The notes below the pieces were generated by a model. The model did not search any database, was not told where the DNA came from, and saw only the letters and a program-made list of their open reading frames with translations. From positions 1 to 39,492 of the forward strand of contig CALXXO010000005.1 of assembly GCA_944392705.1 (NCBI GenBank): a stretch of 39,492 bases of DNA, read 5' to 3'. The number at the start of each line of letters is the position of its first letter. Within the stretch, counting starts at the first letter, position 1. This document shows, piece after piece, positions 18,482-24,077 of the stretch. The translations under genes and the position numbers were made by a program. Source of the stretch: an uncultured Spirochaetaceae bacterium (GTDB lineage Bacteria; Spirochaetota; Spirochaetia; Sphaerochaetales; Sphaerochaetaceae).

Positions 18482-19795
18482 TTAGTTAATCTTCAAGAAT
18501 GCTTTGTAGCAATCCTTTGCGGAGAGTACATCGCTTACCGCCGTGATTTCCCACGGAGCGTGCATTGAAAGGACAGCAACGCCGCAATCAATCACCTGCA
18601 TTCCGTAATATGCTGCGAACTTTGCAATCGTTCCGCCGCCGCCTGTATCGACTTTGCCCATCTCACACATCTGGTACTTGACGTTATTGTCGTCCATGGC
18701 TTTCCTGAGGGTGGCGATGAACTCTGCATTTGCATCTGATGCGCCGGACTTTCCTCTAGATCCCGTATACTTGTTGAAAACAACCCCATTGCCCATGATT
18801 GAAGCATTCTTCTTGTCGTAAAGGGATGTGTTGAGTGGATCATATGCAGCATTGACATCGCTTGAAAGCATATAAGATAATCTCATCATTCTCTTTAATT
18901 TCAGGCCATCATAGCCGCAGATTCGTGCAAGTACTTCGGCTGCTGCATTCTCCAGGAATACACTGTCCATTCCCGTAGCTCCAACGGATCCAATCTCTTC
19001 CTTGTCCACGAGAAGACAGCAGCTCGTTCTTTTTGCATCCTCTGTCTCAAGTAGCGCATCGAGGGAGGTGAAAGCACAGACTCTGTCGTCCTGCCCATAG
19101 GCGAGGATCATGGATTTATCCAGTCCAAGCATCTTTGCCTTGCCCGCTGGGACAATCTCAAGCTCTGCGCTCTTGAAATCATCCTCTTCCATATCTGCAA
19201 CCTCAGAAAGGATGGAGAGGATCTTTTCCTTTCCCTTATTCTTTGCATCTTCGCCATCCTCGCAGTTCAGCCCAACGACAAGATCAAGGTCTTCGCCTGG
19301 GATGAATTCAGAAGCTGTCTTTTTCATTTGTTCCTGTGCCATATGGGGGAGGATGTCGGAAATGCAGAATGTCATTTCATCATCTTCACCGATGCAGATT
19401 TCCTTCTTTGTCCCATCCTTCTTAACGACAACTCCGTGAATGGCGAGAGGGAGAGTAACCCATTGGTATTTCTTTATGCCACCGTAGTAGTGGGTATCCA
19501 TGTAGACGACGCCCTCGCTCTCATAGATTGGATTCATCTTAACATCCAATCTTGGGGAATCGATATGCGCGCCGAGTATATTCATACCATTCTCAATAGG
19601 CTCTTCTCCGATTCTGAAGAGCGCTATGGATTTTGAATACTGTACGAAGTAAACCTTGTCGCCAGCTTTAAGGGATTGCACATCTTCGATGTTCTTGTAT
19701 CCCTTGGCTTCTGCGAGCTTTATGATTTCACTGATGCACTCCCTCTCTGTCTTGCCGTTATCGAGGAAGGCTCTGTATCGCTTTATCTCGTCCAT
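18482..19795 (-). CDS. M18 family aminopeptidase
   Basis: 437 aa, the usual M18 length. It is a zinc metallopeptidase removing N-terminal residues from peptides. Metal-binding and catalytic elements are visible: AHIDSPRLD (His and Asp, near residue 76), the DKEEIGSVGATG segment with the tandem Glu (near 263), DVNAAYDP (near 313) and the closing SMHAPWEIT with a ligand His (near 408). GGAGG before ATG. M18 enzymes are cytosolic and act in peptide turnover. Confidence 0.93.
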   Translation of the reverse strand: MDEIKRYRAFLDNGKTERECISEIIKLAEAKGYKNIEDVQSLKAGDKVYFVQYSKSIALFRIGEEPIENGMNILGAHIDSPRLDVKMNPIYESEGVVYMDTHYYGGIKKYQWVTLPLAIHGVVVKKDGTKKEICIGEDDEMTFCISDILPHMAQEQMKKTASEFIPGEDLDLVVGLNCEDGEDAKNKGKEKILSILSEVADMEEDDFKSAELEIVPAGKAKMLGLDKSMILAYGQDDRVCAFTSLDALLETEDAKRTSCCLLVDKEEIGSVGATGMDSVFLENAAAEVLARICGYDGLKLKRMMRLSYMLSSDVNAAYDPLNTSLYDKKNASIMGNGVVFNKYTGSRGKSGASDANAEFIATLRKAMDDNNVKYQMCEMGKVDTGGGGTIAKFAAYYGMQVIDCGVAVLSMHAPWEITAVSDVLSAKDCYKAFLKIN

Positions 19796-19855
19796 TTAGA
19801 ACCTCCATCTGCGATATTAACTTCTTTCATAATCAGGTGCAAAGAGATTCCAAAG

Positions 19856-19887
19856 AAAAAAGGCCGGAGATTGATGATTCTCCGACC
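19856..19887 (-). terminator. Terminator of beta-helix lipoprotein gene 1
   Basis: Minus-strand stem GGTCGGAGA / TCTCCGGCC (9 bp, one G-T) with loop ATCATCAA, followed by six T. The 3' half and loop are nearly the same as in the terminator at 21459-21490. Confidence 0.8.
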
Positions 19888-19903
19888 CGATAGAATATTC
19901 TAT

Positions 19904-21377
19904 TCAATCAACGACTTCAAAAATAAAATTGTAGCCAGGATATGAGCTTGCTGGTGTTTTGGTGAGTGTACCATTTGGTAAATCGTCATTTAGAGAATTT
20001 ATTGTTTGATTATCGAGAGTAACTTGATTTGTTTCTTCAGCTCCCTCTATTATATCGTAGCCACCGAGTGGAATCGGATTTGTATATCCAATTACGTCAA
20101 TTGAACATTTTCTCAATGAGATAGAGTTTCCTAATTCATTTGCATCATTGCTGAGAATGTAGAATAGATTCATATCATCACAGTTTTCTTCTTTTCCAAA
20201 ATTGAAAGTAGTATTATTCGCATCGATGGTGCAGTTTTTTGCCGACTGAATATAAATTGCGCTCATACTGTTGCTTGATTGTGTATTTTTATTAATGCTT
20301 GTAAATACGCTATTGGATATTTTTGTTTCGATATTTTCAGATGTCCAAGAATTGCTGTAAATATACAGTGTACCGTAAGCGGTTAGTTCAGTTTCCTCTA
20401 TTGTAATTGTACTTTTCTCGTTTTCATTACCACAGGAATTTATTGTGATGCCGTAATGATTCTTATTAACGGACAGGGATGAATTGTTTCCTATAGCTAA
20501 ATCAAATTGATTGATTTTCTGAAGAACTAATGGATAGCTACCACTTTCTCCACCAATATTGATTGATGTGTTATCAAGTTTAATATCAGCAGAGATGTTA
20601 TTCTTTTCACCGGGATTACTTACAAATATGCCGAATCCAGTATTTTCAGATGAAATATTACTACTCTCTGCGGTAATCTTGATATTTGATTCAGTACTGG
20701 ATGGTACGATACTTATTCCTCGGCCATTCTGAGAAATAGCAAGATTGGAGTTGATTAAGGAAATTGAAGTATTTGAGGCTGTTGATGATATTAAATGTGC
20801 AGAAGTCTGATTTGAACTAAGGTTTATATTCTGTACTGTTAAAGAGGAATTTTCTCCTAATGTGAAAGTTGCCTTCACGTTGGTTTTTCCTGAACTTGTT
20901 CCTCTGATTTCGATGTGCCTTCCATTTGGAATGGAAATTGATTCTTCAGTTTCTATATCAGACGGTATCTCGATTATCTCAATGCCTGAGTTGATTGCGG
21001 AAGAGATAGGCTTTTCTGTTGCTGTGTCAATTATTGCTTTTGTTTTCCAAACTGCCTTAAGTACAAGGCCATCATTTGCGTAAGAAAGTACGTCTCCTGG
21101 ATGGTATGAGTTCCCATCATTTCCTACATACTCAAATATTTCATATCCATCAATATATGGGGCTGCAGAAATTGTGAATGACTGAAACTGATACATTGTA
21201 TATGTTTTTTCGCTTTTATAATCAGCGGAAACGTTGTCATTGATTATTGTTACGGACCATGTGTCAGGGATTGTTATTTCTGGGATTGGGGGGGGGTAAA
21301 ACGTTACGGCAAGAAGTAATCAAAAGAAGTGAAAAGATTATGCAGCTGATAATAAATAACCTTTTTCTGGATTTCAT
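19904..21377 (-). CDS. Phase-variable beta-helix lipoprotein 1, OFF in this assembly
   Basis: Length is 3n+1 because of a C9 tract. From ATG 21377 (AGGAGG eight bases upstream) a signal peptide MKSRKRLFIISCIIFSLLLI with lipobox ITSC is read, then NVLPPP, and translation stops at 21264 after 37 residues. The long frame (430 residues from ATG 21196, open upstream to the tract) begins IPEITIPDTWSVTIINDN, includes an InlB/Flg_new-like piece (SYHPGDVLSYANDGLVLKAV), then a Ser/Asn/Thr-rich repetitive beta-helix. With eight C the two join into 490 residues. The ATG at 21196 has no Shine-Dalgarno, so it is unlikely to be a true start. The gene is more A/T-rich than its neighbours. Confidence 0.8.
21288..21296 (-). 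repeat. C9 homopolymer tract (coding strand) in lipoprotein gene 1
   Basis: Nine C on the coding strand, four codons after the lipobox Cys. A tract length of 8 or 11 joins signal peptide and passenger; 9 gives a stop 10 codons on. Confidence 0.85.
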
Positions 21378-21406
21378 CTCATTTCCTCCTGTGAAAACCA
21401 GGGTCG

Positions 21407-21412
21407 AGTATA
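21407..21412 (-). promoter_or_regulatory. -10 box of lipoprotein gene 1
   Basis: TATACT on the minus strand, 29 bases before ATG 21377 and upstream of AGGAGG. The -35 region is weak. Confidence 0.45.
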
Positions 21413-21458
21413 ACGCTTAATTTGAATCATTTCATCATTCCTTGATTATGTCCTCTTC

Positions 21459-21490
21459 AAAAAGGCCGGAGATTGATGTTCCCCGGCCTT
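21459..21490 (-). terminator. Terminator of beta-helix lipoprotein gene 2
   Basis: Minus-strand stem GGCCGGGGA / TCTCCGGCC with loop ACATCAA and a following T5 run. Twenty bases (AAAAAGGCCGGAGATTGATG on the plus strand) are identical to the terminator at 19857-19876. Confidence 0.8.
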
Positions 21491-21500
21491 AGGTTTGTTT

Positions 21501-23109
21501 TTATTCAGCTGAGCTCTGAATAATCGTTGTTTCCGCGTTTTCTGGCTTAAAAAATGCATTGTCGGCAATCACTTGATCTGCATACTGCGAGGAAGTGAAT
21601 GTTACGCTTTGTCCATTGTAGCTTGAGACATAGACATCGAAAGCATATTCGCTATTGGATTTGTTTACGATAGTCGAATTCTCAACAGTACAAGTTGTTG
21701 GGTAATCATATGAAGTACTTCTGTTTCCAACAAGAAGAGCGGCGTAAGGGGCTTCAAAGTCTGTTCCCCAGTTTTCTTTCAGATACTTGTCTCCAATAGA
21801 GGTATCGTTAAAACTTCCTGTGATAATCTTGCTATCAGTGATTGTGGCATCTCCTCCTCGGAGTGTAATACCATTCCTTGTTCCAGTTATTACAGACTGG
21901 TTTTTGACTGTAAGTGTACCTGGAACATTGAGCATTATTCCTGTACTTCCCTTTGTTCCAGTGAAATTAGCTGTAATATCAGAGTGGTCCACTGTGATTG
22001 TTATATTTTCGGAATATGGATTTGATGCATTTGTGGAAATACCATATGAACCACCTGCAATAATTGTGGAATCCTTCACCGATACCTTAATGTTCGATTC
22101 AGTTGCAGCAATATAAATTGCGGTTCCTTCTGATTCATATTCTACATTATCAAGAGTTAGCGAGGAATCTGCATAAAGACCCAGGTCTGAAGCTTCACTT
22201 GCGTTCTCATCTGCATCAAGCCTGTTCATATACATTTTACCGTTCATGATTGTTACATCGGTTCCTGACTGAATATAGAAGCAGCCGTTGCTTCTTACAT
22301 CGAAAAGATGACCGTTTAGATCTATTTCATATTCATAGATGCCACTTTCAGTTTCCGGCAAAACGTACTTGTTCGTTTCATCTTTGATGATAATATCCTT
22401 TGTCAGTCTTGCTTTGCCTGTGGTTTGGAGCATCTCTTCAAAAGTTGCCTGATCCGTTACTTCATATCCAGTGGCGATGTCAGGGGAGGAGGTTCCATTG
22501 CTTTCGCTTATCGAAGCCGAGATTTTGAAAGAATCCTCGTTATTCTCATCGATAACGATTGCTGCACTCGTATTCTTTATGCTGATACTCTCAGCAGTTG
22601 CGTCTGGGCCAATTGCGATTCCTGCGATTTTGGATTCTTCTGTTGGAGCTGAAACCTGCAGACCTGAGACATCGACTTTGCCGTTATTGACATAGACGAT
22701 GGAAGATAGCGATTCCGAGCCAAGAGTTGAGACGGTAGCTGTAAGATTGCTGAAGCTTACATTCGCATTGTCCCCTACGACGAAAATGGAATCTGCTGAT
22801 GATGTTATAGCTCTTGTATTTGCCGCCGAAGATGTCGATGCTCCGTCTTCTATTATCATGGAGCCGGTGACGATGACATCTTTGTTGAGAGTTATTGGAA
22901 GCAAATAAGATGATGGATTGATTCTCACATTTCTTAGTGTCAATCTGTCGCCATCTGAAGCATTGTTTACGGCATTAGCCAAATCCTGGAGAGAATCAAT
23001 ACTATTTGATTGACTTATACCCCCCCCCAATCGGAACGAAAACATATTCTGTGCATGATCCGAATAAGAACAGGAACAGCACAGCTAGAATAGAGATGTA
23101 TTTCCTCAT
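21501..23109 (-). CDS. Phase-variable beta-helix lipoprotein 2, OFF in this assembly
   Basis: Length is 3n+1. ATG 23109 follows AGGAG and encodes MRKYISILAVLFLFLFGSC, a signal peptide with lipobox FGSC, then TEYVFVPIGGG, and stops at 23002 after 35 residues. The 514-residue overlapping frame carries the passenger: LQDLANAVNNASDGDRLTL, then strand-turn repeats rich in Ser, Asn, Thr and Ile (for example VENSTIVNK, VKNQSVITGTRNGITL), typical of a right-handed beta-helix surface protein. With eight G the product is one 535-residue lipoprotein. Same architecture as gene 1 but weakly similar sequence, so paralogy is remote or modular. Confidence 0.8.
23020..23028 (-). repeat. G9 homopolymer tract (coding strand) in lipoprotein gene 2
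   Basis: Nine G on the coding strand, eight codons after the lipobox Cys. A length of 8 or 11 restores the frame; 9 leads to TAG at 23002. Confidence 0.85.
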
Positions 23110-23127
23110 TTTGTTCTCCTGTCAGAA

Positions 23128-23158
23128 ATTTTAGCACTTCATTGGCTACGATTGTCAA
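23128..23158 (-). promoter_or_regulatory. Promoter of lipoprotein gene 2
   Basis: Minus strand TTGACA (23153-23158), 19-base spacer, TAAAAT (23128-23133), followed by the AGGAG Shine-Dalgarno and ATG 23109. Confidence 0.6.
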
Positions 23159-23178
23159 TGAAAAAGGAGGTCTTCCTT

Positions 23179-23229
23179 GTGACAACACACTGGCATATGA
23201 CAAACTTTTCTTTTCCTGTATCATATTGA
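23179..23229 (+). CDS. Short leader ORF coupled to the membrane protein gene
   Basis: GTG-initiated ORF of 16 codons (MTTHWHMTNFSFPVSY) with a strong AAAGGAGG Shine-Dalgarno eight bases upstream. Its stop overlaps the next ATG as TGATG. The next gene has no Shine-Dalgarno of its own, so this ORF may deliver ribosomes to it. Too short for a protein family call. Confidence 0.45.
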   Translation: MTTHWHMTNFSFPVSY

Positions 23230-24077
23230 TGTTGGTTCATGATATGAGAAAAAGAAGAAGAAAAATCCACACACTGCCATTGAAAGAGCAGATAAAGAGG
23301 GAGCCAGGGCTGTTTACTGTATATATCCTTCTGCGTACAGCTGTCATAGGCATGATGATTGCTCAGATTTTCAACAGAGACTGGCAGAATGTCATGCTCT
23401 GCATTCTTTCTCTATTCTTATTCACGATACCTTCGTTTATTGAACGTAACTGGCACATTGACATTCCGAACACGCTGGAAGTCATCATTCTGTGCTTCAT
23501 ATTCGCAGCTGAGATTCTCGGAGAAATCAGAGCTTTCTATGTGAAGGTGCCAGGATGGGATACTGCGCTGCATACAGTTACAGGCTTCCTTTCTGCCGCT
23601 GTCGGATTCTCTCTTGTAGATATAATAAACAGGAATGAGAATACGAAATTGTATCTTTCCCCTGTCTATGTAGCGATAGGTGCATTCTGCTTCTCAATGA
23701 CGATTGGGGTACTTTGGGAATTCTTTGAATTCGCCGGTGATATGCTTTTCGATCTTGATTCTCAGAAGGATACTATCGTTCATGAAATACACTCGGTGCT
23801 TCTTAATCCTTCGGGGAAGAATATAGCAGTATCGATAAACAACATAACGGATACGACAGTGAATGGAGTATCCCTAGGTATCGATGGCTATCTTGATATC
23901 GGGCTGATTGATACTATGAAGGATCTCTTCGTTAATTTGATTGGTGCGACTGTTTTCTCGATAATAGGCTTCTTCTACATTAAGGGCAGGAGCTCCGGTA
24001 AATTCGCCAAACGTTTCATGCCAACGCTTATGACGAAGAAGAACCTGCCCATCGATGAAATCAAAGAAGAGAACTGA
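23229..24077 (+). CDS. Conserved polytopic membrane protein of unknown function
   Basis: 282 aa from ATG 23229 (ATG 23244 also possible). About six transmembrane segments: TVYILLRTAVIGMMIAQIF, VMLCILSLFLFTIPSF, LEVIILCFIFAAEILG, then an amphipathic GWDTALHTVTGFLSAAVGFS, YVAIGAFCFSMTIGVLWEFFEF, and DLFVNLIGATVFSIIGFFYI. Charged residues within the membrane part (HTVTGFL, WEFFEF, DTMKDL) are reminiscent of an uncharacterised family common in Bacillota. No enzyme motif is recognised. The C-terminus overlaps the convergent metK by 17 bases. Confidence 0.8.
   Translation: MLVHDMRKRRRKIHTLPLKEQIKREPGLFTVYILLRTAVIGMMIAQIFNRDWQNVMLCILSLFLFTIPSFIERNWHIDIPNTLEVIILCFIFAAEILGEIRAFYVKVPGWDTALHTVTGFLSAAVGFSLVDIINRNENTKLYLSPVYVAIGAFCFSMTIGVLWEFFEFAGDMLFDLDSQKDTIVHEIHSVLLNPSGKNIAVSINNITDTTVNGVSLGIDGYLDIGLIDTMKDLFVNLIGATVFSIIGFFYIKGRSSGKFAKRFMPTLMTKKNLPIDEIKEEN

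Follow-up and report, generated by a model that had tools for sequence, protein, structure and literature searches.

The window, by which we mean the whole 39,492-base stretch of DNA analysed here, is contig C5 of a MAG (2.12 Mb, 199 contigs, 75% complete) whose genus is Candidatus Ornithospirochaeta. Two adjacent genes on its minus strand, here called A and B, each have a start codon, a predicted signal peptide, and a lipobox in one reading frame and a long passenger in another, with a run of nine identical bases at the point where the frame changes. Besides the tracts of A and B, no G/C run of at least seven bases is present anywhere in the window. The two genes and their parts are as follows.

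21377..19904, minus strand: gene A, lipoprotein with predicted beta-helix passenger; C9 puts it out of frame (OFF), 490 aa if in frame
21309..21377, minus strand: signal peptide of gene A up to the lipobox Cys, MKSRKRLFIISCIIFSLLLITSC, a sequence prediction
21288-21296, minus strand: putative switch tract of gene A, C9 on the coding strand (G9 on the plus strand), read from the sequence
23109..21501, minus strand: gene B, lipoprotein with predicted beta-helix passenger; G9 puts it out of frame (OFF), 535 aa if in frame
23053..23109, minus strand: signal peptide of gene B up to the lipobox Cys, MRKYISILAVLFLFLFGSC, a sequence prediction
23020-23028, minus strand: putative switch tract of gene B, G9 on the coding strand (C9 on the plus strand), encoding a Gly-Gly-Gly linker

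Reading frames and predicted products of genes A and B

The ATG of each gene (21377 in A, 23109 in B) is preceded by an AGGA/GGAG-type Shine-Dalgarno sequence, and the distance from the ATG to the start of the tract is exactly 81 nt in both. The gene lengths, 1474 nt for A and 1609 nt for B, are of the form 3n+1, the passenger frames run for 430 (A) and 514 (B) codons without a stop, and the homopolymer is the sole lesion in each gene. With tracts of 8, 9, 10, and 11 bases, gene A would yield products of 490, 37, 34, and 491 aa, and gene B products of 535, 35, 31, and 536 aa, respectively. A sequence-only reading of this DNA had placed the split between frames at the nine-base runs after the lipobox, and frame arithmetic on both genes reproduces this exact to the base. 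The same reading had 8 or 11 bases restoring proteins of 490 and 535 aa, which is right for eight and one residue short for eleven; its description of both genes as OFF is correct by frame, but denotes the assembled majority state only. Arithmetically, two independent tracts would give four expression states.

Export and lipidation of both products are predicted. The predicted lipobox is LLITSC in A and FLFGSC, a looser match with F at -3, in B, both called from sequence only. A promoter lying inside the genes, at their tracts, was also considered, as GGGGGGGGGTATAAG in B resembles a -10 element, and was dropped because no -35-like hexamer lies at the proper distance.

AlphaFold2 models, built from small alignments that combined sequences of the window with those of relatives, predict both passengers to be right-handed parallel beta-helices (pLDDT 83.2 and pTM 0.85 for A; pLDDT 84.8 and pTM 0.84 for B), in agreement with the beta-helix passengers that had been proposed from the sequence. 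Foldseek by itself was weak (best E 1.1e-3), whereas the VIA-align matches to beta-helices were clear: A aligned to Vag8 with Z 27.5 (rmsd 3.3, 309 aligned), to the Sf6 tailspike with Z 26.4, and to pertactin with Z 26.0, while residues 166-514 of B aligned to Vag8 with Z 22.7 (rmsd 3.0, 251 aligned), to the L. reuteri SRRP adhesin with Z 21.7, and to pertactin with Z 21.4. Proteins with this fold include adhesins, tailspikes, and polysaccharide enzymes. Among the best structural matches are surface proteins of the right-handed parallel beta-helix type, namely Bordetella pertactin and Vag8, Lactobacillus SRRP, and pneumococcal PfbA, but their sequence identity to A and B is 7-15%, and the likeness is one of fold that implies no function. 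Searches of Pfam and NCBIfam assigned no family to A or B, the single weak matches not being credible, and neither Pfam nor the models revealed a C-terminal beta-barrel translocator of the autotransporter (type V) kind in either protein. In the B model the strands of the helix reach the C-terminal end, and the A model ends without a barrel.

The surroundings of the two genes contain the following features.

18482..19795, minus strand: conserved left neighbour, M18 aminopeptidase (PF02127, 1.6e-85)
19847..23205, no strand assigned: accessory islet with A and B; edges approximate, from comparison with empty sites
19861..19888, minus strand: terminator-like hairpin 3' of gene A, a consensus match
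21459..21490, minus strand: hairpin in the B-A intergenic gap, terminating in T5, AAGGCCGGGGAACATCAATCTCCGGCCTTTTT, read from the sequence and outside the scored scan matches
23128..23158, minus strand: putative constitutive promoter of gene B, TTGACA (23158-23153), 19 nt, TAAAAT (23133-23128); consensus match only
23244..24077, plus strand: conserved, divergent right neighbour, putative membrane protein, from comparison with relatives

The spacer of the putative B promoter carries no tract. The terminator scan found four matches against 2.3 expected, one of them the hairpin after A, and the hairpin between B and A resembles it. Since B has a promoter-like sequence of its own and a hairpin follows each gene, A and B are probably separate transcription units.

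In most relatives examined, the M18 and membrane-protein genes directly adjoin with no lipoprotein gene between them, and these empty sites, at which the gap between the two genes is about 75-100 nt, include the two closest relatives by M18 identity (L263, 89%; L264, 87%). In the window, the islet measures about 3.36 kb and is bounded by the shared flank words GGTGCAAAGAG (19836-19846) and TTTTCTTTTCCTGTATCAT (23206-23224). Because the flanking genes adjoin in this way in most of the relatives, the arrangement is most simply read as a joint gain of A and B in the window lineage.

G/C tracts across the genome and genus

Pattern searches of the window genome counted 20 G/C tracts of at least eight bases (four of eight, 13 of nine, and three of ten), all of them next to or in surface-related genes: 19 are associated with lipoprotein genes, and the remaining one lies in a glycosyltransferase gene. 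Thirteen lie in the promoter spacer upstream of a lipoprotein gene, in the arrangement TTGACA (or a near variant)-N7-12-G8-10-TAnnnT, after which a Shine-Dalgarno sequence and start codon usually follow 20-50 nt on. The tracts of A and B, in contrast, lie outside any -35/-10 spacer and within coding sequence, and together with those of C1, C72, and C136 they make up the five found at the 5' end of lipoprotein frames; one further tract, a C-tract, lies upstream of a lipoprotein start (C90). The tract within the glycosyltransferase-like gene (G000:C7:17832-17840; L036 2333-2341) is a C9 and is in frame, and this gene is a candidate phase-variable surface-glycan switch.

Every one of the 48 genomes of the genus carries a G run of eight or longer. 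In genus DNA, G runs of 3, 4, 5, 6, and 7 bases number 2973, 662, 81, 11, and 1, and those of 8, 9, and 10 or more number 16, 46, and 20, the loci having been partly chosen for tracts, which exaggerates the size of the second mode but leaves the gap at 6-7 unaffected. The G/C tracts are longer than chance, with a separate mode at 8-10 and a near-absence at 6-7. Among 37 tract promoters in genus DNA, spacer length ranges over 15-21 nt and is most often 19, the -10 element ends in T in 35 cases, and a mirrored form with a C-tract beside the -35 is seen at L062, L212, L230, and L231. Across the phylum, 50 of 296 Spirochaetota genomes show the promoter pattern, against two control hits. A cultured relative, Bullifex porci, has one tract promoter of this kind (L184), with G9.

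Similar arrangements were seen farther afield. Four Spirochaetia genomes from one large genus of another family (G321, G213, G209, and G142) have up to 21 matches each to the promoter pattern, in which the -35 often stands closer to the tract. In unrelated gut Firmicutes, the same design (TTGACA-N10-G8-10-TATAAT-like) stands before tandem paralogues of exported proteins (L095, L105, L181, and L199 in one Bacilli MAG; L113 and L116 in a Clostridia MAG; L123 and L112 in a Bacilli MAG), and near-identical copies there carry G8, G9, and G10; pattern matches in three of these genomes number 14, 11, and 20 with overlaps counted, and control hits 0. At three contig ends of G006 (L206, L211, and L237) we observed a repeat ending in GGGGGTTAGTTCAA(T/A)AC-G9-TA, one copy of which precedes a lipoprotein gene, and this repeat possibly breaks the assembly at tract promoters.

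Tract length differs in 44 of 82 pairs of related tract loci. The closely related length variants are all promoter tracts, and their lengths are those of the assembled consensus, so that fast change is read between loci and lineages and not within one population: two loci of one genome, L172 (G10) and L195 (G9), have flanks that are 98.8% identical, their counterpart in another genome, L198 (98%+ identical), has G8, L151 (G9) is 92% identical to L222 (G11), and L135 (G10) is 91% identical to L149 (G8).

A further regularity concerns the bases that follow the tracts. TA stands directly after 27 of the 39 tracts of at least eight bases outside TTGAC-type promoters, as opposed to 6-7% of runs of 3-5, and GGGGGGGGTA occurs 479 times in the genus against 78 for the reversed control. 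In promoters the TA is the start of the -10 element, whereas coding tracts, at which it holds in different codon phases and with the G-strand as template, have no such reason to carry it. A tentative and on the whole unlikely idea is that the long tracts spread as a small cassette (G8-10 then TA) that is copied into promoters and coding starts in both orientations, and did not grow from chance runs; if this were true, lineages would turn surface genes phase-variable in bulk.

Among the genomes compared, no close orthologue of A or B was found, the best homologues reaching about 36% and 31% identity, and tract lengths within the two families are compared between distant homologues, the window tracts themselves having been seen at nine bases only. 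Homologues with tracts of various lengths, which the sequence-only reading had proposed to look for, were found with G8, G9, G11, and C10, in and out of frame. The B homologue L052 (G007; 36% identity) carries its tract, a G8, at the Gly-Gly-Gly-Ile junction that it shares with B and is open throughout as a lipoprotein of 561 aa, and in another B homologue, L059 (G035), a G8 stands where nine bases are needed, which leaves it OFF. A G9 lies in the ON frame in C1 of the window genome (L034/L003; 549 aa) and likewise in L078 and L079. Among the A homologues, L082 is in frame with a G9 located within the lipobox region, and L083 (C10) and L081 (G11) are OFF. Six of the 13 coding tracts in the genus are in frame and seven out, with an intact passenger in all 13. 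This combination of mixed frames and intact passengers speaks against uniformly broken or decaying genes, contradicting the case that the sequence-only reading had set against itself, in which all relatives are broken and their passengers decay, and it makes a uniform assembly error unlikely.

Two variations on the position of the tract were also seen. In L082 the G9 (1351-1359) codes for the residues directly before the lipobox Cys (VGGGC), so its length could alter lipidation besides frame. In some B homologues (L058, L070, L077, and L054) a C7-C9 tract lies deep in the gene and not just after the lipobox, and in L058 the reading frame is broken downstream of this internal C tract.

Proposed switching and alternative explanations

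Our preferred reading, to which we assign a probability of roughly 0.87, is that A and B are slippage-switched ON/OFF lipoprotein genes within a genome-wide tract-controlled set. The beta-helix domain would be made only at tract lengths that join the signal-peptide frame to the passenger frame, namely 8 or 11, a third of the possible lengths. During replication, slipped-strand mispairing at the run would add or remove bases and so turn each protein ON or OFF in single cells, with both A and B OFF in the assembled state. The pair would belong to a group of some 20 surface genes under tract control, the majority of which would be switched via the spacing between -35 and -10, and the likely benefit would be stochastic surface variation in the face of host immunity, phages, and changing gut ligands. 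We infer slippage within a population, surface exposure, and a function of the variation. The ON/OFF lipoprotein genes envisaged in the sequence-only reading fit well with homologues that are in and out of frame, passengers that stay intact, and tract lengths that differ between near-identical loci, and A and B are part of a set of lipoprotein genes, found throughout the genus, that are apparently switched by run slippage.

It might be objected that both tracts in truth have eight bases and that A and B are plainly in frame without any switching, the ninth base being an assembly or sequencing error. The window does come from a MAG, homopolymers are a usual error site, and A and B need the same +1 correction. 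Nevertheless, frame states are mixed among the tracts of the genome, whose lengths are 8, 9, and 10, and a G9 is in frame at C1, which leaves no room for a uniform +1 error; relatives from other assemblies show the same mix of in-frame and out-of-frame lengths, and an error would still leave the A and B tracts in place, far from chance. We therefore consider error quite improbable. Frameshifted surface genes on their way to loss would also be out of frame, as A and B are in the sole genome in which they were seen, and might well be accessory, as the pair is. Decaying pseudogenes, however, are hard to reconcile with passenger frames that remain open over their full 430 and 514 codons and give confident folds, with a homopolymer as the only lesion in each gene, and with the intact passengers kept by the other out-of-frame genes of the set, and we regard decay as hardly credible.

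Runs of nine identical bases are known RNA polymerase slippage sites. Recoding at N=9, whether by RNA polymerase slippage or by ribosomal frameshifting, would give constant low full-length expression and not a heritable ON/OFF state, and both the slippage-prone nine-base runs and the passengers that are intact though out of frame are compatible with it. Against this, homologues are in frame at other lengths, and recoding has no meaning in promoter spacers, where most tracts of the genome lie. As a replacement for heritable switching, recoding appears very unlikely; alongside the ON/OFF switching that we favour, it may leave the OFF state leaky.

Comparison with known phase-variable systems

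Switching by homopolymeric G/C tracts is a classic, well-known mechanism, and most knowledge of phase-variable surface repertoires comes from cultured mucosal pathogens. We judge the phase-variable pair described here to be real and its mechanism ordinary; what is newly recognised is the phasome. A literature search in which few subscription journals were covered, judged mainly by titles and abstracts for Ornithospirochaeta and Bullifex, yielded no report of phase variation in Sphaerochaeta, Ornithospirochaeta, or Bullifex. Much of the lipoprotein coat of an entire genus of gut spirochaetes, uncultured and presumably commensal, appears to be controlled by tracts, with a single protein family combining promoter and reading-frame switches. 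Should reads confirm this, there would be many surface combinations per cell population, and direct measurement of switching would be possible in gut metagenomes. Gene callers will miss or shorten such proteins in MAGs.

In Treponema pallidum, poly-G phase variation of envelope genes is known experimentally for tp0126, tprE/G/J, and tprL, with tracts of 7-11 bases and most often 9 in tprL (PMC7864442). The likeness lies in a spirochaete with G tracts and envelope proteins, and the tract of tp0126 is placed between -35 and -10 (PMC7864442), as in most of the tract lipoprotein genes here. The switches described in T. pallidum work at transcription, their targets being putative outer-membrane proteins, whereas A and B would be switched by reading frame and encode predicted beta-helix lipoproteins. 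Because a 17-nt spacing is best in tp0126 (PMC7864442), most of the assembled tract promoters here, with spacings of 18-20 nt, would be expected to be weak or OFF. Campylobacter autotransporters carry poly-G in the promoter (capC) or in the coding sequence (capD), and tract length did not account for whether capC was intact or inactive (PMC7168839). This division between promoter and coding tracts within one surface-protein family is shared with the lipoproteins to which A and B belong; in contrast, capC and capD encode autotransporters with a C-terminal barrel, while A and B have a predicted lipobox and lack a barrel. Neisseria porA and opc, whose promoter strength is governed by a poly-G or poly-C tract (as cited in PMC7864442), resemble the other tract genes of the window genome and not A and B.
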